The position numbers and the translations under genes are program-made. This document shows, piece after piece, positions 18,707 through 62,185 of a stretch of DNA of 64,000 bases (positions within the stretch are counted from its first letter, which is position 1; each line of letters opens with the position of its first letter). The DNA is taken from contig NC_033639.1 of the NCBI RefSeq assembly GCF_001540865.1, forward strand, positions 5,181,920 through 5,245,919, in the 5' to 3' direction. The notes beneath the pieces were generated by a model, which saw only the letters and a program-made list of their open reading frames with translations, had not been told where the DNA came from and ran no database searches. The stretch is from Ananas comosus. Lineage: Eukaryota; Streptophyta; Magnoliopsida; Poales; Bromeliaceae.

Positions 18707-18729
18707 ATAGATAGATAGATAGATAGATA
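18707..18729. repeat. (GATA)n microsatellite
   Basis: About five tandem gata units inside the LTR of element E. The aligned parts of other LTRs in the window do not show it. Confidence 0.85.
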
Positions 18730-20410: not shown

Positions 20411-20617
20411 AATAGAGCTCCAGACTTGAGTTTTGCACCGTTTCGACCCCAATTCGCGTCGAGCAATGCTAAAACCTTTCTAACACTTTTGGAACTCAAC
20501 TTTAACCCTTCCAACATTGTTGGAATGTTAAATGGACTTTGCCCAAACATTCTTCTTGCCACGCTTTGGTCATTTTGACCAAAAGTGGTTTAATGTGACG
20601 GGATCCACTTTCTTACA

Positions 20618-41520: not shown

Positions 41521-42633
41521 CTATAATGAATGCATGCACCACATAGTAAAAGACTAGCTATCATGCTACTATGTTCAACAACAATGCTATTCATTAAATC
41601 ACCCAATCACTCGGCTAGCCCGAAGGCTCGCCCTCAACTCATGTCTCAATCCCATAAGTGAGGAGTCTCAGCCGCTCAACTCACCCGAGACCGCCTGCGG
41701 ACAACTAGCTACTGCCCTATCGTGTGACCAAACCTCCGGAGTGCACGGCTTGTGTGGAGCGACCGCAACAAGCATATAACAGGCTACGCGAGCACGATCC
41801 AATCCTCGTCAACTGAGGATACTCTAACAACTAGGGTTATCATCATCATGGAATCAATGTATTCCTATACTCATCATCCTAGTGTTCCAACTACACTAAG
41901 GTTCCCATATGCCACTCGTTCTTCAGTTAAGTGTTTTCAATACAATAATTACACATTCACTAGGTTTTCATTCACCTAGGGTCCAATCCACATTTATCAT
42001 CCATTATAGGGTTCTAGGTCACTATGTCTCTATCTCATGCATACTAGGTTCAAGTGTTAAGCAAGCAACACTACGCTACCACTAGCATGCAAGAACATAT
42101 AAGAACTATCTAATTAAGCACCCTATAATGCGATAGCTCAATATGCAACTTGATCAATCATAGCACTTAGACATAGGGAGCAGTCCAACTGCTTCGGGAT
42201 GGCACCACCCACCTCTCGGCGATGCTGCGACCCGTGGAACGGAACTCGGCAACTCTAGGATGTCGCTTCGGCCCTCCAAGTAGAAACGGAGACTATGACC
42301 GCCCCTTTTCACCGATAACTCTTCACCGACTCGACGAATCGTCGAACTGTCCTCGCCAACGCGATTAGACACCTAGCAATTAGGTTTACAACCAACCAAA
42401 TGAGATCAAACTCATCGACTTCTCAAAACCCCAAATTGGAGCACTAGGTTGCAACTATTGCAATAAAACCTCAACAAAGCTCTAGATTCATGCAAGAACC
42501 ATCTTACTAGTCTCCTAGGGTTCACCCAAAACCATTTCTAGAGCATAAAACCTCAACCCTAGAAAAATACCATTAAAGGGTTTAGAACTTACCTCTAGAG
42601 CTTTCTCCAACCTAGAGGAAGAAGATGAAGAAG
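41521..42633 (-). mobile_element. E-type LTR fragment
   Basis: Matches the middle of the LTR of E (about 18790-20060): shared blocks around gctactatgttcaac, gtggagcgaccgc and atcctcgtcaactgaggata. A candidate splice donor lies at 42592 (minus strand, gag|gtaagttc). It is cut on the right by the plus-strand LTR at 42634. No gene is seen. Confidence 0.75.
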
Positions 42634-42784
42634 TGTAACACACTGGACCTGTGCAAATTGCGAGGTTCGAGTGTTTGATTTGAGTTCCAAGCTTTTCCAC
42701 ACTTTGTGGAGGGTCGTATACGGTGTTCCGACCCGCGGTTCAAAATTCTGGATTTTTGGCTATATCCTGAGAGTTTCACTCTCG

Positions 42785-42925
42785 GGGACCGGTCCCTGGT
42801 GGGAGAGAGACCGGTCCCCCTGATACAACCGGTCCCCCGGGTCTGAGAGACTGGTTCCCGAACGCGTGGCTGCGGGAGAGTCCTGAGGGACCGGTCCCAT
42901 GTGGGGAGAGACCGGTCCCTCCACC
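42785..42925. promoter_or_regulatory. GGGACCGGTCCC palindrome array in LTR H
   Basis: Five ACCGGT cores in about 140 bp, mostly as gggaccggtccc or gagaccggtccc, plus one decayed gactggttccc. They lie about 150-290 bp from the LTR start and some 75 bp before the TATA-like box. Confidence 0.72.
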
Positions 42926-43928
42926 CGAAAACTGCCCAGTCAGGGCAGTGCACAGGTTGCATTGTTGAGGGGCTTTTCTAGATTTTGTTACATTAGAGGG
43001 ACTATATGGCATTTTCTCTCCCTCTCTCCCTCATTTCTCTCCCTCACATTCTCTTACACTCTAGAAAGAGAAGAAGAAGGAGAGCAAGCTTGGAGGAGCT
43101 TTGGACTTCACCACACCCTCTCTTCTCACCTTTGGAGGCTTGGAGCTTGGGCTAGGAGCTTGATAGAGTATCAACCTTCAACCCTAGAGTATTTTGAGCT
43201 TGGTTTGGAGCTATCAAGGAGGTTAGTATGCTTAATCTACTCTTTGGAGCATGTTTTGGTAGGTTTTACCAAATAAAACCCTAGATTTGGGTTTTAGGGT
43301 TAGATTTGGGGATTTTTGATTTGAGGGCTTTGGAACCTAATTGATTGGTTTAGAACCTTGGTATAGTTTGCTTTGGAAGGGATTTGGCTTCCATTTGGAA
43401 TTTCTTAGAGGATTTTTACGCTATAGGTGAGTTTTCTCCACCTTAGCTAGAGTTGGTTAATGTTTGAGTTTTGGGATGTTCGTAAAGTTCGTTTAACTCT
43501 TGTTCCTACATCTTTAGGGTGCTAGGAGAGTAGTGGGGACCTTCGTCGGAGCAAACGAACGGTTTGGAGAAGTCCGGTGGGTTTGACTTCATGAAATCGG
43601 AGCGAAATGGCCCCTATGTATTCTATACTTGTCGTAACGTCAATTTGATTGCATATTCATGCTAAATGGAATTTATGTGAATTTTAGAACACTTAAAATG
43701 TATGTGTTATGTGTAAGATAAATTTCACTCTATATAGTAGAGCATTCTGGGTATTATACATGCATGTGAGAAGTGTTCATGGTAGCGAATTGGAAACTTG
43801 TCTCGTATACTTAAAATAGCTCAAATTATGCATTTGTTAACATTTGATTCAAGCTTGGACTTAGCGAATAAAAATGCCATCAAGGGGCACTTGGCTTAGT
43901 AGACTATGAAACTCTACTTTGAGACATA

Positions 43929-43933
43929 GTGAT
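43929..43933. repeat. Left target-site duplication gtgat of solo LTR
   Basis: Repeated exactly at 46415-46419 on the other side of the inserted LTR. Confidence 0.93.
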
Positions 43934-46414
43934 TGTAACACACCGAACCGTCGCAAATAGTGAGGTTCAAGTGTTTGAATTGTGTTTCGAACTTTTCCAC
44001 ACTTCGTGGAGGGTCGTGGATAGTGTTCCGTCCTATGGTTCGAGTCCCGAGAATTGAGGTTCAAGACTTGGCACCTAAACCCAAAAATTTGGATTATTGG
44101 TGTGCTCTCGGGTAACTGTCAGTAGGGTGGCGTACCGGTACGCAGTGATGGCTGTACCGGTACAGCCATCGACACTGCCAGCCTGTGCGCCAACCCGAGG
44201 CTCGGGTTGGGCTGGTTCGCAGGTTGTGTACCGGTATACAAACCCGTGTACCGGTACACAATGCAGACTGGGCTGTTTTCGGGGAGGGGTGTATTTGCAA
44301 TTGTTGCAACCTCTTTAAATACCACCCCAGCCCCCTTAGCTGCTCTTTTGAGCCCTAGACCAGAGGAGAAGAGGTAAGAACTTCCTCTCTTGAGTTCTTT
44401 ACCATTTTTGATGGATTTTTGTGGGTTTTGATCTCTTCCCCTTTGCTCCTCTTTGCTTCTTGTTGGGTTCCTCCATGGGAAAAGCTTGGATTTCGGGATT
44501 GGAGCTTGTTTGAGGATCAACCTTCAACTCTAGGGGACTCTAGGCTTGGTTTGGAGGTTTCAAGAGGTAAGCATCAAGTTTCTTTCCTCTAGATTTGTGT
44601 TTTGTTGCTTTCTACTTGTTAGAAACCCTATATTTTGGATTTTAGGGTTAGAAATAGGGATTTTCGAGTTAAGGCTTTTTGATCTTGATTGATCTCATTA
44701 GAACCTTTGATTAGGTTGCTTTAGAAGGGTTTTTGCTCTCTTTGGGAGATCAAGAGAGGATTTCACCATATAGGTGAGTTTTTCCCCCTTGTGTGATGTT
44801 GTTAATGTTTGAGCTATAGGCTCTTCGTTTCGTTTGGGTGACCCTACCTTTGATGCTTCTAGGGTACTAGGAAGCCCGTGGACCACTTCGTTCGGCGAGA
44901 CGAAGAAGTCGATTTTTGTGGGTTTGACTTCGTGGAAACGGGGCAAAATGGCCCTATACTCTCTATACTTGTTGTAAAGTATTTTTTTAAATGCATTTCT
45001 ATACTAAATGGAATTTATTTGAACTTTAGAACACTTAAAATGCATGCCTTATGTGTAAATTAAATTTCACTCTATATAGTAGAGCGATCAGGGTTATTTT
45101 CATGCATGCAAGGAGTGTTCGTGTGGACGAATGGGATTCTCGTTGAGTATGCTAAATTAGCTCACATTTGTATAATTGGAAACTTTATGCTAGGCTTTGA
45201 CTTAGTAGCATAAAGTGTCATCAAGGGGCACTTGGAAACTAGTAAACTATGAAACTGCAACATAGAGACATAATGTTAGGCCATCGTACATCTGCTATAC
45301 ATTCCATGTTAGAGACATGATGACATAGAGATAGGCCTTTGGGACATTCGATACATTCCATGTTATTAGACATAAGGACTTGGTACTTGTGACAGGACGT
45401 ATGACTACTTGCCATTGTGCTCATTCGCACATGCTTGTGAGGGTCGCTCCCTACAAGCCGGCACTCCGGAGATGGCCATCGCGATTTCGTATTCGCCGTG
45501 CGAGATTGGGCGCCGAAGTGGATTGCCGTGGGCCAGGCTCATTCCTAGGGTGGGGATGATGACTACCACGGGGCCATTAGGCTCGGCATCGGCCAGACAG
45601 CCTACGGGTGGGTCTCAGGGCCATAGACAGCCTTCGGGTGGGTCTCTCTAGATTGACTTTGAGTATTCACTACGACATATGGACAGATGGTGACTTAGTA
45701 TATTGACTAGAATAATAAACAATGATATTTTTACTATTTGCTTGAGGACATCGTATTGGTTGCATACTTATGCTTATTCATGTCATACACATCCATATAC
45801 ATTCATGTTATAGATGCTTTATTACTTATGAAAATCATGCTAAGTAGAGATATTATGCTATAGCGAGTTACATTTTACTTACCTTTTACTTTACTACATT
45901 TTGTCACTGACCTCCTCTTTGTAGCTTTTGGGCCTTGTGGCGCAGTTCACTGAAGTTAGTAATTGCCCACTGGGAACTATTTTTAATAGTTCTCACGCCC
46001 TCTTTTTCGTGGTTTCTTTCAGAGCCTTTGGCACCGACGGAGGCACGGGATCGTGGCAAGGGGATCGCATAGCTAGCTAGCGAGGAGCGGTTCTTTGCCT
46101 AGGTGGTTTACTCTTTCTTTTTGTAGTTGAGAGAGTGAGAGATTTTGTATCCATGTATAGAGACCACCTATGTATTTACTTTCAGCACTTGTTTTTGGGA
46201 TTCCTTTGTACTACTTTATGTTTCTATCAGTGGATTTCAGCTTCATATTCCTTTCTCTATTGTAGAACTTAGTCTTCTAGCATACTCTGATACTACTAGA
46301 TGTCTTTTATTATTGCTTATTTCATCGTTGTTTTTAGACGCCTTCTATGTTTTAGACGTATAGCGGGTCTGGGCACGTGCCGGGCGGGCTTCCGCTGGGT
46401 CCCGGGGCGTGACA
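43934..46414 (+). mobile_element. Solo gypsy LTR inserted in LTR H
   Basis: 2481 bp, from tgtaacacaccg to ggggcgtgaca with a perfect gtgat TSD. It contains tgtaccggtaca boxes with an aacccgaggctcgggtt palindrome between them, a TATA-like tctttaaatacc near 44310, a pyrimidine-rich leader, a candidate splice donor at 44567, an acceptor ending at 46022 and a hairpin at 45966-45997. There is no internal region, so unequal recombination between two LTRs probably removed it. Confidence 0.93.
44128..44262. promoter_or_regulatory. TGTACCGGTACA palindrome array in the solo LTR
   Basis: Four boxes (cgtaccggtacg, tgtaccggtaca, tgtaccggtata, tgtaccggtaca) with a perfect 17-bp aacccgaggctcgggtt palindrome near 44193-44209 between the second and third. 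The array ends about 50 bp before the TATA-like box. Confidence 0.75.
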
Positions 46415-47499
46415 GTGATAGGCCATTGACATCTATTACCTTTCATATTTTAGACATGTTGCCATAGAGATAGGCCATTGAGACATATTTTTAGACATGA
46501 GGACTCGGTACTTGAGACGGATCTTACAGTTGTTGCCATTGTGCTCATTCGCACAAGCTTGTGAGGGTCGCTCCCTACAAGTCGGCTTTCCGGAGATGGC
46601 CATCGCGATACATATTCGCCATGCGGGATTGGACGCCGAAGTGGATTGCCGTGGGCAAGGCTCATTCCTAGAGTGGGGATGTTGACTACCACGGGGCCAT
46701 TAGGCTCGGCACCGGCCAGACAGTCTAGGGGTGGGTTTACAGGCCAGACAGCGTTTGGGCGGGCCTTCCAAGATTTAACTTTAAGTAGTTAACATGCCAA
46801 GTGAACATTGACTAGAATAGTAAACAATGACATTTTACTATTACATTAGGGACATTACGATGGTTGTATACTCGTGCATTTTCATGATAGAATAGCTTTC
46901 TTACTTATGCAATTCCATGCTAAGTAGAGACATCATGTAGTAGCAAGTATTCATGTTCATTTACTTGTCGTATATATCGCTTTTGCTTATACTCGTACTT
47001 ACCCTTTTTGTAGCTTTTGGGCCTAGTGGCGTATTTCACTGAAGTCAGTAATTGCCCACTGGAAACTATTATTTAATAGTTCTCACGCCCCCTGTTTTAT
47101 GGTTTTATTTCAGAGCCTTTGGCACCGGCAGAGGCACGGGATCGCGGCAAGGGTGTCGCCTAGCTAGATAGCAGGGAGCTACTTGCTCTTAGGTGGTTAC
47201 TCTCTTTTTGTGTTTTTGGTAAGAGAGATTTTTGTACCATGTATAGAGACCACCTATGTACTCTTTTAGCTCTTGTTTTGGGATATCTTTTGTATTACTT
47301 ATGACTCTCATCTAGTGGATTTGGCTTCTTTCACCTTTTCTTGTTGTAGAAATCTAGATGTACTATGCTCTGATACTCCTAGATGTTCTTTTATTATTGT
47401 TTTATTTATCGCTTTGTTGTAGACGCCTTGTATGTTTTAGATATATGGCGGGTCTCGGCACGCGCCGGGCGGGCTTCTGCTGGGCCCCGGGGCGTGACA
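46415..47499 (+). mobile_element. 5' LTR of element H, second part
   Basis: Starts with the gtgat duplication and ends ggggcgtgaca at 47499. It carries the hairpin at 47055-47087 and a candidate acceptor ending at 47113, the partners of the donor at 43222. The primer site follows. Confidence 0.88.
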
Positions 47500-47507
47500 G
47501 ATTAATT

Positions 47508-47520
47508 TGGTATCAGAGCC
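47508..47520 (+). other. Primer binding site of element H
   Basis: Exact tggtatcagagcc, eight bases after the LTR end. Confidence 0.92.
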
Positions 47521-47840
47521 TAGGGTTGAGTCTTAGGGGACCTAGCAAACCTTAGGCTGGTTGGACTATAGGGAATAGGCTCGTGAGAGACGAGATCTAT
47601 TTGACTTGTAAGCGAAAGTATCTTGATTGGGTATCTTTGATAACTCTAGAAAGTGGAGTTGAATCGAAGTGTATGGTTTCTAACTTCGCGGAGGGTTACG
47701 TTGGCGGCCGACAACGTAACATCTGGAGTTAGTAGTGAAGAACACTTCCTTACTTTCGCATGATTTGGGCTTTACCTTCTTGAGCGGGGATTCGATAGCG
47801 TGAGTTTGCTAACTTGCGCTTTTATGATACTGTAGTGACG

Positions 47841-48198
47841 ATGTCGATTACACACTCCCAATCTGCCGGAGCGGATAATGCGGCGAACTTGGAGTAGGTC
47901 GAGACCTCCGCTACCTCCGGATCCGGCGAGGTCCGTGAGTTTAGGGGCCAACTTGCGGCCCTCACTAATGTGGTGACTCAGCAGACGGAAGCAGCGCACC
48001 GACAGGAGGCACGGATGAAGCGCTTGGAGGACCTTCTACTTCAGCAGACTACTGCTAGAGAGACTCAGGCTCCTATGCCACCCGCACCGGTGGAGGTGGT
48101 TGCACCCCGGGGGTCGTCCCCTGCACTCGACACATCTCAGACGGTGCCTGCGGCAGCACCACAGGAGGAGGCGATTGCGGCACTACCAGCTCCGGTGT
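47841..48198 (+). pseudogene. Gypsy gag N-terminus (element H), ends at an inversion junction
   Basis: Starts MSITHSQSAGADNAANLE. A TAG follows at about 47896, where element F has Glu. The frame then continues through the Gln/Ala-rich helix (MKRLEDLLLQQTTARE) and Pro/Val linker. It matches the gag of element F. After ALPAPV (48198) the sequence switches to antisense protease-RT DNA, so the gag core is absent. Confidence 0.85.
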
Positions 48199-48893
48199 CC
48201 ATACTGTGTTCTAAAAACCGTCTTCGACACATCCTCAGGCTTGATTTTCAACTGGTGATATCCCGACTGCAAGTCAATCTTGGAATATACATAAGATCCC
48301 TGGAGCTGATCAAATAGATCGTCGATCCTCGGCAATGGATATTTATTCTTAATCGTGACTTTGTTAAGTTCACGATAGTCCACGCACAAGCGAAGTGATC
48401 CATCCTTTTTCTTAACAAATAGGACCGGTGCTCCCCAAGGTGAAACACTCAGTCGCACAAAACCCTTGTCCAGAAGATCCTGCAACTGTGCCTTCAGCTC
48501 CTTCAATTCTGCTGGTGCCATCCTATAGGGCGCCTTTGAGATTGGAGTGGTCCCGGGAACGAGATCCACTACAAACTCAATCTCCCTATCCGATGGCATG
48601 CCCGGAAGCTCAGCTCGGAACACATCTCCAAACTCCCGCACTACGGGGATATCCTCAATCCTGGGGGCATCATCATTACCCCTCAACACAACAGTAGCCA
48701 AGTAGGCCACACAGCCTCTACTAATAAACTGCCGAGCTCGAGAAGAGCTAATCGTCATCGCAAACAGCGAACTCTGGCATCCTCGGTACACAACCTCCGC
48801 CTGCCCCGGCTCTCTAAATGTCACCGTTCGATTTTTGCAATCAATGGTGGCAAAGTACTTGGTCAACCAATCCATGCCCAACACAACATCAAA
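48199..48893 (-). pseudogene. Inverted gypsy protease-RT fragment
   Basis: Minus strand, open. It runs from [20 protein letters not shown] (end of protease) through [58 protein letters not shown] and [20 protein letters not shown] to FRTQYGH, ending at 48199 before the RT active site. It is close to the F-family copies at 29 and 56 kb. On the right it is cut by the copia LTR at 48894 just before VVLG. Its orientation is opposite to the gag beside it, so an inversion or strand-switched joining happened here. Confidence 0.88.
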
Positions 48894-50005
48894 CGTTAAG
48901 GTTTTTGTATTGGCAAGTTTCGTGAAGTGAGTCGGAGTCTTGAAGGATCGAAGCGGATTGACGAAGATTGAAGAATTCAAGATTTCGAATATTTTGGAAA
49001 GTAGATCACAATGTGAATCACGACGTAAAGGTAAGTTTTAATTCATGATATAGTGATTCATACTTAGTTATAGGCATTAAAATCATAAACTCAAAGTTTA
49101 ATGGATTAGAAAGTGCCTCGGAACAATGTGGAACCCGAAACAATGCAAAACACAAAAAATTGCATTGTGTACCGGTACAGCAATTGACCATGTATCGGTA
49201 CAGCCATCAACTTTATTTCGAAAATCTGTTCCGTCATTATGTACCGGTGACAGCCTTTCGTGTACCGGTACACTATGTAAAAACGTGAAAAACTTTCTAA
49301 TCCGACTCCAATTGATTCTAAAGTCTATAAATAAGCTATTGGGGTTCTCCAACAGATCAAGGATCACGAGAATACATGTTTGAGAAACCCTAAAGGCTCG
49401 GATTTCATCTAAAACCTATTTTCTACATATTAGCCTCTTTTAGATCAAATCGAGATTTTGGACTTTGATATCAATATGTCGATTTGATCTCCACTTCGCT
49501 TCGAGATCTCTTTCCTGGTTTTCATCGATACTCTAAGCGAAGGATCACCATAATCATGATGCTCTTCATGACGGCGTCGTGGATTCGGCGTGATTAACGG
49601 CGGTTCGTGGATTCGGATCGTGGGCTCGTGGATTCGAGTGGCGTCGTGGATTCGGCGTGATTGAAGCTTCGTGGATTCGAAGTGGAGGCGTTCGTGGATT
49701 CGGACGTGAGGGCGTGGACAACCCGGAGGGTAGCGCGAAGATTCATAGGAGGTTAAGAGAGGTTGAGTCCGTGGAGTCGGTAATCACCTTGTAATCTTTT
49801 CTCTTAGTGAATTATTTTTTCGCGTGTTGGTCCCGTGGGTTTTTCTCCAAGTTGGAGTTTTCCCACGTAAATCTCGGTGTGCTTTTTATTTTCCGCATTT
49901 ATTTTTATTGCATCGAGATTTGTGGTTTTTGGCCTTTCACCTATTCACCCCCCTCTAGGTGATAGATACAATCTAGATAGATCCTTGGGCTCCTCAAAAC
50001 TTTCA
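48894..50005 (+). mobile_element. 5' LTR of copia copy 2
   Basis: About 1.11 kb, from (c)gttaagg, where copy 1 has tgttaag, to aaaactttca. Contains tgtaccggtaca-type boxes (49168-49273), a TATA box (tctataaataagc near 49323) and a cgtggattcg repeat-rich part (49577-49706). It interrupts the inverted gypsy protease fragment. Confidence 0.9.
49168..49273. promoter_or_regulatory. ACCGGT boxes in copia copy 2 LTR
   Basis: gtaccggtac appears near 49169 and 49262, with a related gtaccggtgac between them and a decayed gtatcggtac near 49194. The TATA box follows about 50 bp downstream. Confidence 0.7.
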
Positions 50006-50007
50006 AT

Positions 50008-50019
50008 TGGTATCAGAGC
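50008..50019 (+). other. Primer binding site of copia copy 2
   Basis: tggtatcagagc, two bases after the LTR end; exact match to the initiator Met tRNA complement. Confidence 0.92.
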
Positions 50020-50043
50020 GGGATCTAGATAAATTGTTATCTA

Positions 50044-51670
50044 ATGGCCGAAGGTGGTAACATTAATCGACCTCCGCTCTTCGACGGCACGAATTATGCC
50101 TATTGGAAAGTTCGCATGAGAGCTTTTCTAATTGCAATCGATGAGCGCGTTTGGCAATCAATCGAATTTGGATGGAAACATCCTATTGAAAAGGTCGAGA
50201 ATGTTGAAACGCCAAAACCACGGAACAAGTGGACGAAAGAAGAAAACGAGACATCTTCGTTTAACGGCAAGGGCATAAACGATTTATTTAATGCATTGTC
50301 TCAAACGGAGTTTACTCGTGTTTCGGCATGCGAAACGGCAAAGAAAATTTGGGATACTCTACAAGTTACGCATGAAGGAACGAGCTTAGTAAATATCCAA
50401 AAATTGCAAATGTTAACAGGCAAGTTTGATTCTATTTCTATGGATGAAAACGAGATCTTTACCGAGTACTATACACGTCTACAAGACGTTGTGAATACAC
50501 GTGCTAACTTAGGAGAGAAAATTCCGGATTTAAAGGTTATTAGAAAGATTCTTCGAACTCTTCCAGAACGCTTTCGGGCAAAGGTTGCCGCGATCGAAAC
50601 GGTTAAGCATCCGGACAAGATGAAAGTCGAAGAATTAGTAGGTGCTTTGCAAACTTATGAGATGACTTTTCCTACTAATCAATCTTCTTCCAAGTCTTTC
50701 TCTAAAAGCACAGGGGTTGCGTTGAAATCGACGAAAGAGGAAGATGGAGACTCGAATTCCGACAGAGAGATCTCAATTGCCGACTTTGAACATCAATTGG
50801 CGCTTCTAACAAAGAAGTTTCGTCTGAATTTCTGGAACAAGAATAAATTGGACAAGGCTTCATCGTCTAAGCGACAATCTTTTTCTCAATTATCTACATC
50901 TTCTAAATCTAAGGATCGGAAACTTGCAAAGCATTCAAAAGAAAAGGATGGATTTGAAGGAGAAATCCAATGTTACAAATGCAAAGGCTACGGTCACATC
51001 GCAACGGATTGTCCTTCAAAGAAATCGTATATTAAGAAGGCATTGCAAGCAAAGACGTGGGATGATACAACTTCAAGTGATTCAAGCTCAAGTGACAAAG
51101 AAAAGAATAGAAATCTTGCTTTATTTGCTACATCTACCTTGCCTTCGTCTAACATTGTATGTTTATCCTCTATTACTACTAATTCCAATATTTCTCTTTC
51201 TTCACATGATTCTTCGAGCGACAATGGCGAAAGTGAGGAGGAATCAAACGACGACGACATAGCGGAAGCATACAATCAACTTCTTATTGAATCAAAGAAG
51301 ATGGCCAAAACTTAATAAGAAGTTGAGGCGTCGTTTGTTGAATCTCGAAGAGGATAACAACAACTTGAAGACCACGAACAAAGCTCTCGAGGAGGAAAGG
51401 GAATCAATTTTGAAGAATAATTCGGACCTCCAAGAGAAGCTCAATGAAGCGGAATCAACGGTCAAATCATCTAAAGACAAGATTGAATTTTTGGAGCATC
51501 AATTTCATGAATCGCACAAATCCAATCAATCCTTGACCAACCAAGTTCGACAACTCCAATCCGACATACAAAAGTTCTCATCGGGAATCCAAAGAAATTG
51601 GACATATGCTCGGGTTGGCGTCAAAAGGCGAAAATTAGGACTCGGACCTACGGAAAAGATTGTTTGTTGA
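50044..51670 (+). pseudogene. Copia (Sirevirus-like) gag, one frameshift
   Basis: Starts MAEGGNINRPPLFDGTNYAYW. The first 423 codons are open: UBN2-type gag domain (about 1-250; WDTLQVTHEGTSLVNIQKLQ, LPERFRAKVAAIE), a Ser/Lys-rich linker, CCHC knuckle (about 310-323, CYKCKGYGHIATDC) and a Ser/Asp-rich acidic part. A small indel near 51300 shifts the frame. The coiled coil (KLNKKLRRRLLNLEEDNNNL and onward) continues in another frame to a stop at 51668-51670. A second knuckle is only a remnant (HKGHIKRC near 51740). It is about as long as the gag of copy 1 and has fewer stops, so copy 2 may be younger. No pol follows. Confidence 0.9.
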
Positions 51671-53090
51671 GAAGGATCTAATCCAACTTTATACGAAGTC
51701 TCAACAACTTAAAAAGCAAAGTGCAGATCAATCGTATATGTGGCATAAAGGACACATCAAAAGATGTCCCACCAATTATAAAAAAGAAATAAAGAAATGA
51801 ATTCTTCGCACGGTCTTCACATCATTCGACAAACTGCCTAAAGCTCCAGCGCATCATCTCACAACACAATTCCCCGCGCGAATCAAAGAAAAATCATGTG
51901 AGTCGAGTAGAAAATAATCGGACTTTAAACCGGGGCCAGACGCCGAAGTTTACCTAAGCCTCACGCGACAAAACACCAAGGGTTGATCTAAAATCTAAGC
52001 AATGGCAACACAAGTCGACAAGTCGAGAAAACCAAAGATCGCGAAGCAAGTTTGGATACGAAATGTGATATCTTTCCTGCTTTCGCTCTTAGTTGTTTTT
52101 TATTTTCTGTGGTAGTGCTATTGATAGGTGCTGTTGCCAAATAATTTATTATTGTGCTATTACATGTTTAAATTGATTTGTATTTGAATTTGTTTGGTTA
52201 AAATCATTTTGAGGAAAGGTGTTAGGAATTGCAAAATTTTTAGAGAAAGGCAGCATGATGCAGAACTGCATTATTTTGAGGAGAAAATTTCTTTAATGTA
52301 CGCGTAAACGTATTTAACTTTCACATCATATTAGTTATAATTTACATTTAGTTTATTTTTACTCCAGTTTTTATTATTTTACGATAATTTAATATATGAT
52401 TTCTTAATGCATATATTCATCAAAATTTTGAAATCAAATTTGATCTCTTGGTGATTAATTCATCTTGGTTGTGTGTGTTGGATATGATGGATGGATATTC
52501 TCTAATTGACTAAAATTCGTCAAAATTATTTTCAATTGTGAGATTGTCTAATTTAGGGGGAGTTTGAAAATAAAAAAAAAAGAAAAAGATACTCCTATGT
52601 TTAAAAAATGTGGAAAGAGTTACATACAAAAGGAGTGTGAAAACTACCACCACATGTAGAAAAGAGCTACCACCCCAGTCGTCCGGCAAGTGTGTGAAGC
52701 TACCACATGAAGATTAAATTGAGTAACCGAAAAAGGTTGAAAAAAAAAATTGAATATTTTAGAATTTTCGGAGTTATAAGGTGGTAAGTTGAAAAGATGC
52801 TCAAAGAGCCACCCCCGGTATCATATTAGTTAAATCTCTATTTTGAACGAATTGCGACAAATTGGTGTCAATTTTATTGAATTTCAAAGAATCATTTTTC
52901 ATCAACTTACATCTTGATGGTTTTGAATCATTAAATCATTTTGATGACAAAATTGTGATGTTTCGATCTATTTTGAAATTTTATAATATCTTATTCTCAT
53001 TATAATGATTTTTGGAGTAAAATACTTAATTTATATGAAATTAATTTAAATTTGATGGATTTTCAAAGAAAATTTTTGAAATCTGATATC
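51671..53090 (+). mobile_element. AT-rich spacer of copia copy 2
   Basis: No gene seen. It includes a gag C-terminal remnant (near 52010-52080, matching the tail of copy 1 gag), a purine-rich word taatttagggggagtttg (52548-52566) that also occurs in copy 1, and the gtggtagct-rich block at 52620-52710. Its order matches copy 1 in reverse (about 9100 down to 8060), so it is ancestral to the family. Confidence 0.7.
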
Positions 53091-53679
53091 GTGTACCGGT
53101 ACACGATTCAGTACCGGTACGGGTACTGTAGCCGCGGATATATATCCGGTTACAGAGCTTTTGTTCTTTCTCAAATCTGAACCAAACTTCGTTTTCTCTC
53201 TCTCTAAAACTCCCTGGTGCCTTCCTCTTGCAGATCTACACGATTTCCCTCTGAAATTTGTGAGTATTTTTCTTGGATTTAATCGTTTCATCGCGTTCAT
53301 GTTTATTTTTCGAAAAATTTCGAGTTCATGCATACAACTCTATTTTTGAGCATTTTTGATGCAATCTTTTGCTGTAGATCAGTGCTTAAGGACATTATCT
53401 TGCTTCTAGAACACTTGAATCACATCAAAACACATTATTTTTTGCTGATTCATGTTCTAAGCTTCATTTTTCATGTAATTTCGGGATTTTTTTTGTAAAA
53501 AGTCATTTTTGATGGAAATTTTTTGCATGATCTGGTTAGAAATAGCATTTATATGCATTCTAATGTTATTAGAAATTTTTTCGCTATTTTTACAGATTTT
53601 TTCAAACTTTTGTTCATGCAAGGTTAATGTTTGTATAGGAAAAATGGCATTTTCGCTTGTGTTGCTGATTTTGGTGCTA
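53091..53679 (+). promoter_or_regulatory. Promoter-like region and candidate leader intron of the 53.7-kb ORF
   Basis: Two ACCGGT boxes (gtgtaccggtacac at 53091, gtaccggtac at 53112) are followed by a TATA-like ggatatatatcc (53136-53147) and a pyrimidine-rich leader (tttctctctctctaaaactc). A plausible 5' splice site (ttg|gtgag-like, near 53261) and a 3' site (tttgtatag, ending about 53638) would bracket a T-rich leader intron. Splice sites are by eye. Confidence 0.5.
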
Positions 53680-55138
53680 ATGGCTGCGAGACGGAGCCGA
53701 GGTGGTGGTAGAGGTCGTCATGGGGCCTCTGAAAGGACACGTACAACAGAAGAAGCGTCCGGATCTGATCCGGATTATCAGGCGAGCTCCCCGGAAGAGA
53801 CTGAAGAACATATTGCTCGACTTGACAAGGGCAAAGGTATAGTTGGCGAATCCTCGCGAGGTGGTGGTTCTCGTGCAAGAGAAACTCGGTCGAAGCATGC
53901 TGCGGATGTTTCCCCGGAGCGACGAAGGATGTACATGAGCAAATCTTGTATTGCAAAGCGTTATGTCAACTACAATGATCTCATTCATGACGTTCCTGAC
54001 TTTGGGCGGTTACTACAGCGGGTTCCTATTGAGCCGGTTGGTAGGGTTCCTACTCGAGCTCCTTTTTGTGTGGAACTCATTTGTGAGTTCTATATGAACG
54101 GGAAAGTCCTAGCAGAAGATGAGGAGACCGAGACATATCTTTTTGAGACATTTGTGCGTCAGCAGAAGGTCGTTGTCACCCCATATACTATTGGAGAGCT
54201 TTTAAGGATGAATGTGGATACCATGGGCCTTCTTTGTACATCAGGAGGATTTCAATCCTTGTCTCATTGGGATACTGTTGTAGGAGCTATTTGCAAGGCA
54301 GGAGTGCAAACTAATCGTGCCTATGTAGAGTCCAAGGATCTGAGCTCCCCTGAAGAATCTGAAGAACCTATTGCGCGACTTGACAAAGGCAAAGGTTTAG
54401 CTGGCGAATCATCTCACGGTGGTGGTTCTCGTACTCGTGAGGGACGTTCAAAACAAGCTGCAGAGGTTCCTCCAGCACGGCGAAGGTTGTTTGCATCAAA
54501 GTCGTGCATAGCTGAACGCTTTGTGAACTTCCATGATCTGATTCGGGAGGTTCCTGATTTTGGACGACTACTACAGCGCGCGCCTATTGAGCCTGTTGGA
54601 CGGGTCCCTGCGAAGGCTCCTTTCTGTGTAGAACTCATTAGGGAGTTCTATATGAATGGAAAGGTGCTTGCTGAAGATGATGAAACAGGCACTTTTATCT
54701 TCGAGACTGTTGTGCGTCAGAGGAGATTTCCAGTTACCCCCTATGATATTGGAGAGATCTTGGGGATGCATGTGGACACTTCAGGTCTTCTCTATACATC
54801 AGGAGGATTCCAAGCATCAACTCACCTGGATACTGTTCTTGGAGCTATATGCAAAGCCGGTGTTTACATGACTCATGGTTACATTGAATCCAAGGACTTA
54901 TTACCTGAGTATCACTTGCTATCCTTGGTTATGAGCTACAATGTTCAACCAACTATCGGCACAAAGAGGATCCGCTGGGAGAGATTGGTGTTGCTATATC
55001 TACTTGGTCATCCCGAGCAGGCTCGTGGGTTGAACATCAACATTCCATTTCTGATTTGGCAAAGGATGATTCACGTAATTCAGGGTGCAACTCGACGGGA
55101 TCTACTACCATTCCCTGTTCTGATTACGAGAATTCTTC
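53680..55138 (+). CDS. Plant-transposon-protein-like ORF with duplicated 186-residue domain
   Basis: I start it at MAARRSRGGGRGRHG because the upstream in-frame part is T-rich, hydrophobic and intron-like. About 486 codons are open without a stop, unlike every other ORF here. After an Arg/Gly-rich head (1-35), two tandem units (residues 36-221 and 222-407) are about 70-75% identical. Each has an Arg/Lys-rich part, then PDFGRLLQR.PIEPVGRVP, FCVELI.EFYMNGKVLAEDEET-type and VTPY.IGE.L.M.VDT blocks. This layout resembles the putative plant transposon protein domain found in many plant repeat ORFs (assignment from memory, moderate). A tail (408-486; RWERLVLLYLLGHPEQARGL) follows and then runs out of frame into gypsy gag DNA, so the natural end is lost. 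Function unknown; no catalytic motif recognised. Confidence 0.68.
53784..54341 (+). repeat. Domain duplication, unit 1 (558 bp)
   Basis: Starts gagctccccgg and ends before gagctcccctg. It is aligned without gap over 558 bp (186 codons) with unit 2; start and end landmarks (gagctcccc; tccaagga) are both offset by exactly 558 bp. Confidence 0.93.
54342..54899 (+). repeat. Domain duplication, unit 2 (558 bp)
   Basis: In-frame direct copy of unit 1. Both units stay open and conserve the GRLLQR, EPVGRVP, FYMNGKVLAED and TSGGFQ motifs, so the duplicate was maintained as coding for some time after it arose. Confidence 0.93.
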
Positions 55139-55776
55139 AAGCAAATGGACGGGGAGAACGTGGATCATTGGATCGTGGAGAAATGGTTTATGCACATGGA
55201 GAAGCTGTTTCGAGATACCTTCATCGAGGAACGGGATAGAGTTTGGGTCGCCACACATCACTTGGACGGCGAGGCCTACCGTTGGTGGTTGGATATCCAG
55301 GACAGCCCGAACACTGATTTGGCAGCGATTTCTTGGGCGAGGTTCAAGGAGCTCCTGCTAGCACACTACTTCCCTGCCAGCGTCTAGAGGAAGATGGAGG
55401 AGGACCTGCGCAGCTTGCGCCAGGAGGAGCGAACAGTAGCCGAGTACGAGAGGGAGTTTTCTCGGCTACTCCACTGTGTACCATTTGTGGTGCGGGATGA
55501 CGAGGATAAGGCCCGCATTTTTTAGCGTGGATTGCGGCCTTCGATCTTCCCGTTGGTGCAGTCCTCTAACCTCCAACCTACTGGGAGGTTGTGGACCGTG
55601 CGCTCATTGTGGAGGCTGGAGCGGCAGACCTTCAGGAGCGACGTGAGGCCCTAGACAAGGGCAAGGGCAAGAGGACAGCGGCTGAGGGTGCGAGTCAGAC
55701 GCACTCACGGAGGCTGCCGAGGCACCCCAGGAGCCGGAGCCAGTCACGAGGACGGGGCCAGTCTACCCAGCGATGA
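55139..55776 (+). pseudogene. Gypsy gag core of element I
   Basis: Gag core visible as HWIVEKWFMHMEKLFRDTF, YRWWLDIQD, FKELLLAHYFPAS, VAEYEREFSRLLHC and the basic C-terminal GKGKRTAAEGASQTHSRR stretch. TAG stops occur at about 55385 and 55523, and at least one frame slip near 55580. The N-terminal third seen in elements F and H is missing and is replaced by the ORF of copia copy 2. It is closest to the gag of F. Confidence 0.87.
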
Positions 55777-55794
55777 GGATCTGATCGACGCTAG

Positions 55795-56430
55795 GCCCCG
55801 AGCTGCGTGATCTGTGTTGGCCCACATTTTCCACGACAGTGCACACGCAGTCGGGGCAGGTGCTTTTTGTGTGACCAGAAGGGCCACTTCCAGTCGGACT
55901 GTCCGAGGGGTCCGTCGCAAGCGCCATCATCGGCGTCTGCACCAGCTTTATCGGGTCCCAGCCAGGGGACACCTTCTGTACACCAGCAGGCCGGGCGGCC
56001 ACCTGTGCAGCGGCAGTTGGATGGGTCACGACAGGCCCCGAGTGGGCGCATGTACGCGGCCCAGACTGAGGAGGCGACGGCAGCCGAGAATGTGGTCGCA
56101 GGTATCATTTTACTTTATGGTATTCGAGTTCGAGCATTATTTGATACCGGTGCATCGCATTCATTCATAGACCGGCTGTTTGCCGAGTTGCATGGCATCC
56201 CATTATATCTTTGTTGTATCCAGGACGAGTCGTGGTACCCGATCACTCTTTAGATATTCGAGAGTTTTGCCCCATTTGCCCTATTCGGGTTGGAGGTTGG
56301 ATCATGCCCGTGGACTTGCTAGCTTTGCATAAACTCGGAGAGTTTGATGTTGTTTTGGGCATGGATTGGTTGACCAAGACTTTGCCACCATTGATTGCAA
56401 GAATCGAACAGTGACGTTTAGAGAGCCGGG
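55795..56430 (+). pseudogene. Gypsy knuckle and protease of element I
   Basis: CCHC knuckle (CFLCDQKGHFQSDC), then a Ser/Ala/Pro linker, then IRVRALFDTGASHSFIDRLF. The frame slips near 56210 (LYLCCIQDE) and continues as PGRVVVPDHSLDIREFCPIC and [12 protein letters not shown]. The retropepsin active site DTGA is intact. Confidence 0.87.
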
Positions 56431-57991
56431 GCAGGCGGAGGTTGTGTACCGAGGATGCCAGAGTTCGCTTTTTGCGATGACGATTAGCTCTTCTCGAGCT
56501 CGGCAGTTGATTAGTAGAGGCTGCGTATCCTACTTGGCTACTATTGTGTTGCGGGGTGAGGATGACGCCCCTAGGATTGAGGACATTCCCGTAGTGCGGG
56601 AGTTTGGAGATGTGTTCCCAGCGGAGCTTCCAGGCATGCCACCTGATAGGGAGATTGAGTTTGTGGTAGATCTCGTTCCCGGGACTACCCCGATCTCAAA
56701 GGCACCCTATAGAATGGCACCAGCAGAATTGACCGAGATACGGAGCTTCATCGGTTTGGCCGGCTACTACCGACGGTTCGTCGAGGGATTTGCAAAGTTA
56801 TCTACTCCCCTCACGAGGCTCACGCATAAAGGAATTAAGTTCATTTGGAATGACGCGTGTGAAAGGAGCTTCCAAGAGTTGAAGCAGAGGTTGACGACCG
56901 CCCCGATCCTTACCTTGCCGACTGCTGGAGCAGGGTATGTGATTTATAGTGATGCTTCCTTTAATGGTTTGGGCTGTGTTTTGATGCACGACGGGAAAGT
57001 GATCGCGTATGCTTCTCGCCAATTGAAGGAATATGAAAGAAACTATCCTACCCATGACTTGGAGTTGGCGGCCGTAGTCTTTGCTTTGAAGCTATGGCGC
57101 CACTATCTTTATGGCGAGCGGTGTGAATTATATAGGGATCACAAGAGTTTAAAGTATCTATTCACCCAGAAGGAGTTGAACTTGAGGCAGCGCAGATGGT
57201 TGGAGCTACTCAAGGATTATGATTTGACAATACTTTACCACCCGGGCAAGGCTAACGTGGTGGCGGATGCGCTAAGTAGGAAATCGACGGAAAACTTAGC
57301 GATGCATATAGGTACTCAACCGTCGTTGATCGAGCAGATGAAGCGGTTGGAGTTGGAGGTGGTGGCTCCTGATACACCTTTGAGGTTGATGACTTTGGTG
57401 GTGCAACCTACACTTATGGAAAGGATTAAAGAAAAGCAAGCTTCCGACTCGGAGTTGCAAAAGTTTCGAGCTAAGATGGTTGATGATTGCACCGGTGACT
57501 TCACTCTAGACGGTGATGGCTTCATGCGTTTCCGCGGACGACTTTGTGTACCGGCGGACTTGGGCATTAAAGCGGATATTCTTCAAGAATCACACCGAGC
57601 ACCATATGCTATACATCCGGGAGGCACCAAGATGTACAAGGACTTGAAGTTGCTTTATTGGTGGCCTGGGATGAAGAAGGATATTGGTGAGTTTGTTGCC
57701 AGATGCTTAACTTGCCAACAGGTGAAAGCTGACTACCGAGTTCCTGCGGGAAAACTTCAGAGTTTGCCTATTCCCGTGTGGAAGTGGAAAAAGATCACCA
57801 TGGATTTTGTGATGGGATTGCCATGCTCACAGGCCGGGCATGATACTATTTGGGTGATCGTGGATAGATTGACGAAATCAGCACATTTCATACCTATCCA
57901 CACTATTTGGACTGGTGAGAGACTCGCACAGGTTTATTTGGATGAGATTGTGCGATTGCACGGGGTACCTACTTCTATAGTATCGGATTGA
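56400..57991 (+). pseudogene. Gypsy pol of element I: RT core deleted in frame, RNase H and integrase kept
   Basis: Open for over 500 codons. The protease end and linker ([12 protein letters not shown]) jump directly to [20 protein letters not shown] near 56730. The roughly 190-200 residues between them in other copies, including the RT active site, are absent, but the frame is preserved. RNase H ([33 protein letters not shown]) and the integrase finger and core ([44 protein letters not shown]) follow, with the first catalytic Asp kept. The frame stops at 57988-57990, a TGA where Arg of SDRDPRF is expected, a C-to-T type change. Confidence 0.92.
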
Positions 57992-58849
57992 GACCCCCGT
58001 TTTGTATCCCATTTTTGGAGGAGCTTACAGGACGCTTTGGGTACGCGCTTGGATTTCAGCACTACTTTCCACCCTGAGAGTGATGGGCAGTCGGAGCGTA
58101 CTATACAGACTCTCGAGGATATGCTTCGAGCTTGTGTGATTGACTTTCAGGGAGGATGGTCGCAGCATCTACCGATGGCAGAGTTTGCTTATAACAATAG
58201 TTATCAAGCAAGCATCAAGATGGCACCGTTCGAGGCACTCTATGGACAAAAGTGAAGATCGCCACTTCATTAGAGTGAAGTTGGCGAGAGATTGGCTTTA
58301 GACCCAGATGTGCTCCAGGAAGCAAAAGACAAGGTTCGCATTGCTCGGGAGCGACTGTTGATAGCCCAGAGTAGGCAGAGGAGTTATGCTGATCGGCGTC
58401 GACGAGACTTGGAGTTTCAGATTGGAGATCATGTCTTCTTGAAAGTCTCGCCGACTAGAGGGATTAGAAGGTTTGGAATCCGGGGTAAGTTGAGCCCCCG
58501 ATACATTGGACCGTATGAGGTTTTTGGAGCGTGTAGGCCCGGTAGCGTATAGACTTGCTCTACCGCCGAACCTGTCGGGCGTACACAATATTTTTCATGT
58601 ACCGGTTCTTCGGAAGTACGTCCACGATCCGGCTCACGTGTTGGACGCCACACCTTTGAAGCTGAGGGATGATTTGAGCTTTGAAGAGCAACCTTTGAGG
58701 ATTTTGGCTCGCGAAGTAAAAAGATTGCGGAACCGTGACATTCCCTACGTGAAGGTGCTTTGGAGCAACCACGACGAGCACGAGGCCACTTGGGAGTTGG
58801 AGAGCGCACTGCGGGAGCGCTATCCCCATCTTTTTCAGATGGAGGCTTG
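57992..58849 (+). pseudogene. Gypsy integrase end and chromodomain-like tail of element I
   Basis: After the nonsense codon the coding sequence continues: [20 protein letters not shown] (catalytic Glu region, Gln-Ser-Glu kept), [20 protein letters not shown], a stop near 58252, then the GPY-type region (FLKVSPTRGIRRFG, KLSPRYIGPYEV), a one-base slip near 58520, and the chromodomain-like end (IPYVKVLWSNHDEHEATWEL, PHLFQMEA). The pol stop is at 58848-58850. Confidence 0.88.
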
Positions 58850-58884
58850 AGGTATTTTACTTCTTGAGTTTCGCGGACGAAACT

Positions 58885-58904
58885 CCCTTTTAGGAGGGGT
58901 GAAT
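58885..58904 (+). other. Polypurine tract of element I
   Basis: Purine-rich taggaggggtgaa immediately precedes the LTR start, after a gacgaaactc word. Same arrangement as in elements E and F. Confidence 0.85.
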
Positions 58905-61571
58905 GTAACACACTGGACCTTTGCAAATTGCGAAGTTCGAGTGATTGGATGTGTTTCGAGCTTTCCCACACTTGGTGGAGGGTCGTAAAATATTTTTCAA
59001 TCCAAAAAGTTTGAAAACTTGAGTTCTAGACGAAACCTGAGAGTTTTTACTCTCAGGGACCGGTCCCCGATAGAAGAGACCGGTCCCCCAGTGAGCAGTG
59101 TTGCGCAGTCGGCGAGGCAACCGGTCCCTGGCGGGCGAGACCGGTCCCCGAGCGCTTCTACGCAGTGAGAGACCGGTCCCGCGTGGGGAAAGACCGGTTC
59201 CCGAACGATGGTTTCTTGGGTTCGACACGAGAGACCGGTCCCTTGCAGGGAGAGACCGGTCCCTCTGGGCGAAAATTGCCCAGTCCGGGCTGATGTAATT
59301 TTGGATTTTTGAAGGGCCTCTTTGGATTTTGTTACACTAGAGGGCATATTTGGCTACTTCCTCTTCTCTTCTCCCTCATTCCACCATTCCCTTTACTCTT
59401 AGAGAGAGAAGAAGAAGAAGGGGAGGAAGAAGAAGATGGAGAGAGCTTATTGGAGGCTTGGAACTTCACCCACACTCTCTCTTTTTCCTTTTGGTGGCTT
59501 GGAGCTTTGATTTGGAGCATAGTTGAGGAAAGATCTTGGAACCTAGAGGGTTTTGAACCTAGATTGAAGCTTCTAAGAGGTAAGCAACTTGTTCTTTCCC
59601 CAAGATTTCATGATTTGAAGGTTTTTTGTAAATGGAACCCTAGAATGGGAATTTAGGGTTGATTTTGGGCATTTTGAATTTAGGGCTTTTGAGGCTAGAT
59701 TTCTTGGATTAGAACCTTCCTTTGGGTTAGATTGGAAGGATCCTAGCCTTCTTTTGAAGCTTGAGAGAGATTTTCTACTCCCTAGGTGAGTTTTGCCCTT
59801 TTCTTGTGATTGTTAATGTTTGAGTCTAGAGTTGCTCGTAACGCTTGTGTATCTCTTCGCTCACTTCTTTTAGGGTATTTGGAGACTCATGGACAACTCC
59901 GTTCGGCGAAACGAAGGACACCGCGACGGTTCGTTGGGTTTGACCTAGCCACACAATGAGAACACAATGAGAAAATCTCATTTGTGATGTTTTGAGTATC
60001 GTTAAATGGAAAAGCATGCATAATCATGTTAAATATATTTATTATGAATTTTAGAATGCTTAACATGCATATGTTATGTATAGTAAATTTTTGGACCCCT
60101 ATGTGGTAGGATGCATGCATGTGGGACATAGCATTCTAGTTGGAACTTGGAACCTTGATTCCTATGATGAAAATGAACATTACTTTCATGCATTTAACCT
60201 TTAAGCCCAATTGTGACATTAGGGACTTTGGAAGCCTAGAGAGGCTTGGGGATTAGACTATTTGAGATTTTGGGCCAATGTCATAAAGAGGCATTGGGCC
60301 CCGGGCTATAATGAACGTTGGTATAATGTCATATTTGGAACATAGAACATGAATTGAGCTTGATTAGTTGTGATGCTTAAGTGTCATAAAGAGGCACTAA
60401 GTAAGTGAGTGTTGAGTTATCACATCGTGACATAGAGCTAGACCTTTGGGTTACTAGTAGCTATTGCCATGTTTGAGACATGAGAGTTAGATACTTGAGC
60501 CTTGACTACGCTTGCTTGCCATTTGTGCTCATTCGCACATGCTTGTGAGGGTCTCTCCCTACAAGCCGGCACTCCAGAGTTAGCATACGCGACCTATGCT
60601 CGCTCGTGCGGTATTGAGAAGCCTACGGAGTCGAGTGGGACAGACACGTCCCAAGAGTAGGGATGTTGGGCTACCATAGGCACTTAGGCGGCACAAGCTG
60701 GACTACCTTTGGTAGGTCTTTAATTGGAAATGGAAATCGACACAGTGTTGAGTGTTTATAGTAACTACTAGATAGAGTGTAGTAGTTGGATTACTTGGAC
60801 TTGCTCCTAGTATAGTGTTGGGCACTTGAGTATACGTATGCACATGTAGCATGCTAGGAGATGTTGCTTATTGCATTCATGTAAACATTGTTCACCATAG
60901 TAGAGCATGATCTTCATAATTTCATAAAGCAAATCATAATTGTTACTTGTGGTCATGTAGAGACATACTTGTTCATCATGAGATAAATGTGCATCTTAAT
61001 TGACACCATGTAGTATCTTAGCATTTTAAATATGCTTTCACAAATACAATTATTCATTATTATTGTTCTCTTTTTAGACTTACTCTTTCTCTTTGGGGCC
61101 TAGTGGTGCGATGAGCTGAGGTCAGTAATTGCCCACTGGGAACTATAAATTATAGTTCTCACGTCCTCTGTTTTATGATTTCTTTCAGAGCCTTCCACGC
61201 CGGGAGAGGCTAGGGACCGTGGGAAGGGCGTTACTTCGAGCTAGCTTTTCAGCGAGTGACGAGTTCTAGGTGGTCTACCTCTCGATGTATTTTATTTTGG
61301 AGAGGTTGAGAGCTGTACCAGTGTACTAGAGACCACCTTTTTGTGAACCTTTTGGATTGATATTGTATATCGATATGTTTCACTCTTATTGCTTTAGTAT
61401 ACCTCTTTTACCTTGTTATAGACTATAGATCTATCTGTACTCTGATATCTCTAGATGTAGATTTCTTTTGGCTTTATTTTTCGCTGTTGTTGTAGACGCC
61501 TTATATGTGCTGACATATGGCGGGTCTGGGCACGCTACCGGGAGGGCCTCTGCCGGTCCCGGGGCGTGACA
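58905..61571 (+). mobile_element. 3' LTR of element I
   Basis: 2667 bp, from tgtaacacactggacc to ggggcgtgaca. It holds eight ACCGGT boxes (59058-59265), a pyrimidine-rich leader, a candidate splice donor at 59580 (aagag|gtaagca), the hairpin at 61132-61161 and an acceptor ending at 61188. Right flank gatta is the candidate TSD; the partner is not visible because the 5' end is missing. It ends 431 bp upstream of the MLO-like start codon, in the same orientation. Confidence 0.9.
59058..59265. promoter_or_regulatory. Richest ACCGGT palindrome array (eight boxes)
   Basis: Eight ACCGGT cores, mostly gagaccggtccc, at irregular 20-40 bp spacing in about 210 bp, 155-365 bp from the LTR start. A TATA-like gggcatatttgg lies near 59342 and the pyrimidine-rich leader starts after it. 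Confidence 0.75.
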
Positions 61572-62149: not shown

Positions 62150-62185
62150 GTGCGACCTTTTACCCTTTTTCGCGCCACCATCTCC
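62150..62185 (+). other. Start of MLO-like intron 1
   Basis: gtgcgacctttta follows exon 1 with no matching acceptor in the window. Only 36 bases are present before the isolated N. Confidence 0.7.

Follow-up and report, generated by a model that had tools for sequence, protein, structure and literature searches.

Plant long terminal repeat (LTR) retrotransposons are generally without introns, Ogre and EVADE being named as exceptions in the relevant part of a 2025 review (PMC12786077). Here we describe a candidate intron lying wholly inside the long LTRs of Ty3/gypsy elements in Ananas comosus (contig NC_033639.1, positions 5,181,920 to 5,245,919), a stretch of 64,000 nucleotides (nt) analysed at its full length and called the window below. 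We estimate at roughly 80% the probability that the long LTRs of the Ty3/gypsy chromovirus elements studied here carry a spliceosomal intron in their transcribed leader, with messenger RNA (mRNA) and genome split by splicing.

The comparisons that follow draw on parts of the papers cited. The maize CRM4TR tandem repeats are also chromovirus-derived and give spliced transcripts of LTR and untranslated region (UTR): all three full-length complementary DNAs (cDNAs) had most of the UTR spliced out, with one further splice in the LTR, and their 5' ends lay 18, 40 and 43 nt after the TATA box. These are however derived repeats of the CRM clade, not intact elements, and the passages concerned describe no wholly intra-LTR intron with a conserved module (PMC3648361). 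The soybean element Diaspora (Athila lineage) has a long leader and predicted LTR donors upstream of gag, whereas the acceptors predicted for it lie outside the LTR, on either side of the gag start; its authors wrote in 2005 that the relevance was unknown and that reports of an intron upstream of gag were lacking until then (PMC1142308). Ogre is likewise a plant gypsy element with partial splicing and retained unspliced RNA, but its intron lies between the gag-protease and reverse transcriptase-RNase H-integrase reading frames (PMC6317226, PMC12786077). Short-gag splicing also gives a separate mRNA in BARE1 and EVADE, and packaged BARE RNA is a different pool; these are Ty1/copia elements, however, with introns in the coding region and not in the LTR (PMC3735527, PMC12786077).

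Judged by its sequence, our candidate is most likely a variant of known retrotransposon splicing. Foamy and human T-lymphotropic virus (HTLV) type retroviruses similarly have their major splice donor in R, inside the LTR, but with acceptors in the internal region. No leader intron in Tekay/Del LTRs was described in the open-licence literature, judged by titles and abstract starts among the matches listed. To this extent the novelty supposed by an earlier sequence-only reading of the window stands, but it is not complete, since splicing upstream of gag had already been predicted or seen (parts of PMC1142308 and PMC3648361). The terms 'intron' and 'splic' were absent from the text of a CRM survey (PMC3059260), and 'intron' occurred once, about a host gene, in a paper on beet chromoviruses (PMC3605345). 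In sunflower, the relevant part of one study listed no Tekay among the highly expressed elements (PMC7730604).

Long LTRs and their elements

Self-comparison and direct reading showed the window to be plant DNA crowded with nested LTR elements. The long LTRs observed were as follows.

24081-26519, minus strand: LTR A3, the 3' LTR of element A
31713-34150, minus strand: LTR A5, the 5' LTR of element A
58904-61571, plus strand: LTR B, its start at 58904 confirmed by a check
42634-43933 and 46415-47503, plus strand: LTR H, split by the nested Hn
43934-46414, plus strand: Hn, a solo LTR nested in H with a 5-base-pair (bp) target duplication GTGAT (43929-46419 with the duplication)
34223-35607, minus strand: partial LTR D
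22787-24066, minus strand: partial LTR F
18163-20617, minus strand: LTR E, of a distant subfamily

Further LTR fragments (G, G2, X1, X2, X5) were also observed, with X5 98% identical to X1 across 511 bp and its upstream part N in the assembly. The five LTRs with contiguous ends measure 2438-2668 bp, which fits the long LTRs of about 2.5-3 kilobases (kb) by which Tekay/Del elements are recognised, and the two LTRs of element A are 96.8% identical. Element A encodes a Ty3-type capsid, aspartic protease, reverse transcriptase, RNase H, an integrase zinc domain and an SH3-like domain. A chromodomain (PF00385) passed the Pfam cut-off in the element beside LTR E (E-value 7.6e-8), while the match in element A (0.0014) fell below it. 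The primer binding site directly after LTR H is TTGGTATCAGAGC, with one base different in element A, and we take it to match the initiator methionine (Met) tRNA. Beet chromoviruses use a Met tRNA primer, and in the part of Table 1 consulted the beet Tekay LTRs span 2561-3000 bp, with one footnoted at 1049 bp (PMC3605345). The chromodomain, Met-type primer site and LTR length together fit Ty3/gypsy chromoviruses of the Tekay/Del clade.

Putative donor sites and candidate introns

The sequence-only reading had placed in each long LTR a plant-type donor after the leader and, where the far end survives, an acceptor further on. All 8 donor strings and 7 acceptor positions that it quoted are present at their coordinates and strands (a slash marks the putative exon-intron boundary).

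59580..61188, plus strand: candidate leader intron of LTR B, donor GAG/GTAAGCA (GT at 59580, rank 1 in the LTR), acceptor TTTCAG/AGCC
44567..46022, plus strand: candidate leader intron of solo LTR Hn, donor rank 2
24472..25885, minus strand: candidate leader intron of A3, GAG/GTTAGT to TTTCAG/AGCC, both sites rank 1
32104..33516, minus strand: candidate leader intron of A5, both sites rank 1
18611..20023, minus strand: candidate leader intron of LTR E, AAG/GTAAGG to TTGCAG/GG
43222..43933, plus strand: candidate intron part with donor GAG/GTTAGT in the 5' part of LTR H, broken off by Hn
46415..47113, plus strand: candidate intron part in the 3' part of LTR H, acceptor TTTCAG/AGCC
34941..34950, minus strand: donor AAG/GTTAGTA of partial LTR D, GT starting at 34947
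42586..42595, minus strand: donor GAG/GTAAGTT of LTR fragment G, GT starting at 42592, LTR start missing
20214..20220, minus strand: TATA-like TATACAA of LTR E, 197 nt before the donor

Inclusive GT-to-AG intervals were 1609 (B), 1456 (Hn), 1414 (A3), 1413 (A5) and 1413 bp (E), in agreement with those proposed, and coordinate arithmetic on the two halves of H, which were not joined, again gave about 1.41 kb. In the seven LTRs whose start is preserved, 588-676 bp separate it from the donor (B recounted from 58904); this range leaves out the donor at 42592, whose LTR has its 5' end cut off.

Sites were scored with donor, acceptor and TATA matrices that approximate plant consensus, the splice matrices being unfitted, a first reason for caution about the ranks that follow. 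The proposed donor was the top GT of its LTR or surviving part in seven of the eight copies (B, A3, A5, the 5' part of H, D, E and G) and second in Hn. Nineteen sites on both strands of the window scored at least 9.0 as donors, 8 of them the proposed LTR donors. Among the 6957 GTs of the window, every proposed donor ranked in the top 0.04-0.27%. The expectation that the splice sites be conserved beyond their neighbours held well for the donor, whose 9-mer (identity 0.82) exceeds 93% of local windows, and weakly for the acceptor. In LTR E the first 724 nt had no blastn match to the other gypsy LTRs (one 47-nt match to copia LTRs), and the best donor is nevertheless found at LTR position 594, despite this dissimilarity.

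Acceptors scored highly at the far ends of the LTRs. Six acceptor sites reached at least 9.5 across the window, and four of these are at LTR far ends, at the positions called AG1 and AG2 below. The seven acceptors first proposed lie in the top 0.05-1.7% of 7704 window AGs, and five added sites (X1, X5, X2 and two in G2) in the top 1-7%. Within the whole LTR or surviving part the acceptor ranked first in A3, A5, the 3' part of H and E (best donor of E 10.0, best acceptor 11.0); that of B was first of 47 AGs in the last 800 nt and second in the whole LTR. The GT and AG ends thus stand in consensus context, as in a spliceosomal intron. If spliced RNA were reverse-transcribed, both LTRs should lose the intron; the candidate intron was kept in all five LTRs with contiguous ends, and a junction pattern found no joined-exon LTR in the window, its two matches being ordinary acceptors.

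Putative acceptor module and its two acceptor positions

A block just before the acceptor is common to ten LTR far ends, including the very divergent X1, X2 and G2. It consists, with few substitutions, of CCUAGUGG, a small loop, CCCACUGG, GAACU...AGUUC, UCAC, a variable tract and (C/T)AG.

61099..61162, plus strand: predicted tandem hairpins before the B acceptor, CCUAGUGG...CCCACUGG and GAACUAU...AUAGUUC, ending in CUCAC
23180..23212, minus strand: TTCTCAC...TTTTAG acceptor module of LTR fragment F
384..406, plus strand: AG2 module of X1, the stronger AG1 ending at 260 (TTTTTGTTCAG/GC)
4798..4820, minus strand: AG2 module of X2, the stronger AG1 ending at 4942 (TTTCTTGCAG/GC)
40493..40552, minus strand: AG2 module of G2, the stronger AG1 ending at 40672 (TTTTTTTGCAG/GC), with the CTCAC-to-CAG unit tandemly duplicated (37-bp unit)
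5867..5889, plus strand: AG2 module of X5

The CUCAC of this block matches the branch-point pattern yUnAy. In all 11 LTRs keeping TTCTCAC (X5 included) the first AG is a (C/T)AG 16-28 nt from the A, compared with one of the seven other TTCTCAC in the window; among 1951 yUnAy motifs, the first AG was a (C/T)AG at 17-32 nt in 11.6%. The 11 LTRs with the motif therefore combine a branch-point-like sequence and an AG-free tract, as spliceosomal introns do.

The acceptor proposed by the sequence-only reading (AG2) is the best in B, the 3' part of H, A3, A5, F and E, but other subfamilies have a stronger AG1 upstream. In X1, X2 and G2 this AG1 lies 142-146 nt upstream of AG2, scores 10.0, 11.2 and 12.1, respectively, and is the best of the last 800 nt. 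Over the last 800 nt AG2 was first in six of seven LTRs (main clade and E, with Hn fourth), and AG1 in all five others, two of which, the contig elements L003 and L004 described below, are nearly identical. There would thus be two acceptor positions, AG2, preceded by an invariant branch-point-like CUCAC, and further upstream AG1, the stronger one varying by subfamily, and the 3' end of the intron is probably subfamily-specific or alternatively chosen.

Folded singly, six acceptor blocks gave z-scores of -1.6 to -3.9, the best fold of A3 lacking the first helix. Covariation does not support the helices because they hardly vary (the observed pairing was reached by 196 of 500 shuffles), and the predicted hairpins are a conserved, foldable block and no more. 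Separately, a donor-like G/GTAAGT was observed between AG1 and AG2 in X2 (4868) and G2 (40600), both on the minus strand and about 70 nt before AG2, which could give a second, very short intron.

Hairpin inside the candidate intron

A mid-intron hairpin is kept, with changes, in nine window LTRs (8 distinct rows).

60541..60566, plus strand: intron hairpin GCUUGU-G-AGGG...CCCU-ACAAGC of LTR B
45433-45458 and 46557-46582, plus strand: hairpin copies, some pairs changed
23731-23756, 24995-25020, 32627-32652, 19010-19035, 41748-41773 and 40902-40929, minus strand: hairpin copies, some pairs changed

In this alignment 96% of cells were paired, compared with 40-55% in slid controls. Two pairs are altered on both sides (U-A/G-C/A-U and A-U/G-C), which gives five double-change cells, a number reached by none of 500 shuffles; the number of double-changed pairs (2) was reached by 134 of 500. 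The shuffle control is inflated by relatedness, while the slid controls, in which relatedness is preserved, are biased towards a structure that was itself read from these sequences. Alone, the hairpin folded slightly to moderately better than shuffles in three copies (z -1.1, -0.1, -1.8), and the RNAalifold covariation term for the whole 250-column block was almost nil, so that support for the hairpin is in the pairing, the double-change cells and the slid controls. Its retention with compensatory changes suggests a function of the intron RNA when it is not removed, with packaging, dimerisation and export as candidate roles.

A palindromic CTCCGGAG directly follows the hairpin in Hn (45464-45471, plus strand), G2 (40887-40897, minus strand) and X1 (13-23, plus strand), is altered in B and others, and could be an RNA dimerisation loop. 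Rfam gave no matches at gathering scores, and a large stable fold of 60400-61200 was ruled out (z -0.5).

Related elements in other assemblies

A search of GTDB genome contigs with an alignment of RNase H and integrase yielded ten loci (L001-L010) in bacterial assemblies (Mycobacterium, Robertmurraya, Geminicoccus, Solirubrobacter and metagenome-assembled genomes), which from their gene content are probably plant or other eukaryotic contamination. LTR sequence was read in four of the ten (L001, L003, L004, L006). The primer-site pattern TGGTATCAGAGC is present also in L003, L004 and L006; the other six loci and L001 gave no exact match to it, and the LTR start of L001 was found by reading. TGTAACA matches were observed in L005, L008 and L009. 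Because the 5' LTR ends of L003 and L004 are nearly identical (98.5%), the two were counted as one.

In L003 the LTR starts at 5587 and continues with TATAAATACC, a purine-rich leader and AAG/GTAAGG at 6224 (637 nt in), which lies 159 nt after TATAAAT and ranks first among 131 GTs between 5300 and 7497. L001 starts at 4121 and has TATTTAA, a purine-rich leader and, 141 nt after TATTTAA, CAG/GTAAGT at 5345, the best of 78 GTs (score 11.9, next 8.3). TATA-like sequences lay 141-253 nt before the donor in the ten gypsy LTRs scanned, window copies included, with strong matches in L003 and L006 (scores >10) and moderate ones (6-7) in Hn, D, E and L001; Hn has a slightly higher one at 332 nt. The leader intron is best supported by this repeated order of TATA-like box and donor, because the contig LTRs share little with those of the window beyond the layout. 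L003 and L004 also have a top acceptor of 12.2 (next 6.2), about 280 nt upstream of a site of the type first proposed; further downstream, tandem hairpins that end in GCUCAC precede a pyrimidine tract and a CAG, which the matrix ranks sixth or seventh.

An acceptor-module pattern had no matches in viral contigs and genome contigs, protein searches of viral contigs returned no relatives, and plasmid records gave three distant matches only.

Proposed mechanism and alternatives

If the leader intron is real, which is probable from the sequences compared, a TATA-type promoter in U3 would start the RNA, and with transcription beginning about 30 nt after the TATA-like box the first exon would measure about 110-220 nt. 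A strong donor (AG/GTNAG in the window) would follow 141-253 nt downstream of that box, and the acceptor closing the intron (about 1.4-1.6 kb in the window) would lie within the final 280-650 bp of the LTR and before the primer binding site. The intron may fall within R/U5, as the sequence-only reading proposed. Splicing would be partial, from the donor to AG1 or AG2; the spliced, short-leader RNA would be used for gag-pol translation, and the unspliced RNA with its structured intron would be the genome. In this scheme we infer splicing itself, its frequency, the transcription start and end, and the division of roles.

The sequence-only reading had further argued from a leader full of upstream ATGs. 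Splicing would remove 35-48 of them, but this is an effect of length alone: the number in the intron is near or slightly above that expected from composition (28-38), and is thus a consequence of length and no proof of selection. Splicing would leave 0-2 ATGs in the last 180 nt of exon 1 and 3-5 in exon 2 (18 in E), together with the ATGs of the internal leader. No support emerged for selection acting against upstream ATGs in exons, exon 2 not being clearly depleted.

Several observations weigh against the leader intron. The TATA-like match is weak (<4) in B, the 5' part of H, A3 and A5, and in A3 and A5 it is not the best of the stretch. The L001 donor lies 1224 nt from the LTR start, not about 600, and the more distant L006 has TATATAAAGG followed by CAG/GTATCC at 203, the second of 70 GTs. 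Neither the exact window acceptor block CCCACTGG nor the intron hairpin was found by pattern in L001-L010. Acceptors rank below donors: over all that survives of each LTR, those of B and F are second and that of Hn is sixth (fourth of 45 AGs in its last 800 nt). The acceptor 14-mer (0.76) exceeds just 68% of local windows, a weak result because neighbouring bases are conserved too.

Base composition and a second element family point the same way. Plant introns are usually U-rich relative to flanking exons, a tendency and not a strict requirement; here the intron showed no U contrast with exon 2 (34-35% vs 35-37% T; 31% vs 33% in E), and a mixed one with exon 1. A Ty1/copia family in the window (capsid family Retrotran_gag_2) has its best donor-like site at position 135, counted within the repeat that self-comparison delimits. 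This site precedes the family's TATA box TCTATAAATAAG, where its own promoter could not use it. Rank alone is therefore no proof of use, and position after the promoter matters. The top acceptor-like score of the window (12.2 at 7750, minus strand) also belongs to a copia element, outside these LTRs.

The donor might instead be real but joined mainly to acceptors outside the LTR, such as a TGTAG before gag or a site in a neighbouring gene, with the far-end AGs little used. TTGTAG (element A) or CTGTAG (H) does lie 4-5 nt before the presumed gag ATG, and an MLO-like first exon begins about 430 bp beyond LTR B, in the same direction.

62003-62152, plus strand: first exon of an MLO-family membrane protein gene (PF03094, E-value 4.5e-9), followed by N at 62186 and then an inverted LTR fragment

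We nevertheless consider this very unlikely, as AG1 and AG2 at the far ends hold four of the six best acceptor scores of the window and no such site was seen by eye before the presumed gag start of the divergent L004. Equally improbable, in our judgement, is that there are no splice sites and the blocks are promoter, 3'-end-processing or packaging structures of R/U5, their GT and AG kept by descent. The acceptor block, mostly invariant and foldable, would suit such structures, as would neighbours as conserved as the acceptor itself and an intron without U contrast, but a donor again follows a TATA-like box in LTR E, where that part of the LTR has no detectable similarity to the others, and also in L001 and L003, and the CUCAC-to-AG distance varies (16-28 nt) while the terminal (C/T)AG and the absence of an earlier AG persist. 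A small alternative intron in the 5' part, from AG/GTGAGT (59786) to TTTTAG (59873), about 90 bp apart on the plus strand inside the candidate B intron and with homologous sites elsewhere, is conceivable, but has lower scores, and only some members of the main clade keep it intact.

With a leader intron wholly inside the LTR, these elements would gain a strong donor at the end of their first exon, possibly higher expression through the intron, and an easy means of keeping mRNA and genome RNA apart. In that case each solo LTR would be a ready promoter, exon and donor joinable to neighbouring host genes. In many plant genomes Tekay/Del elements rank among the most abundant sequences. The literature passages covered gave no explanation for their long LTRs. 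We find doubtful, but worth stating, the further proposal that the intron is a genome-identity tag of Tekay-type elements, whose conserved RNA structures, the hairpin with compensatory changes among them, would mark unspliced RNA for packaging or export while splicing divides mRNA from genome, the need to hold the intron explaining LTRs of 2.5-3 kb.

Minor observations

The assembly has runs of N at 2778-3748 and 5139-5853, and local order may be wrong at the second because LTR type and orientation switch there. The copia family used as a control above comprises the following repeats.

6364-7542 and 11208-12335, minus strand: copia family repeats
48895-49903, plus strand: copia family repeat

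Its donor-like site reads AAG/GTAAGT (49031) in one repeat and CAG/GTAAAG in the other two.

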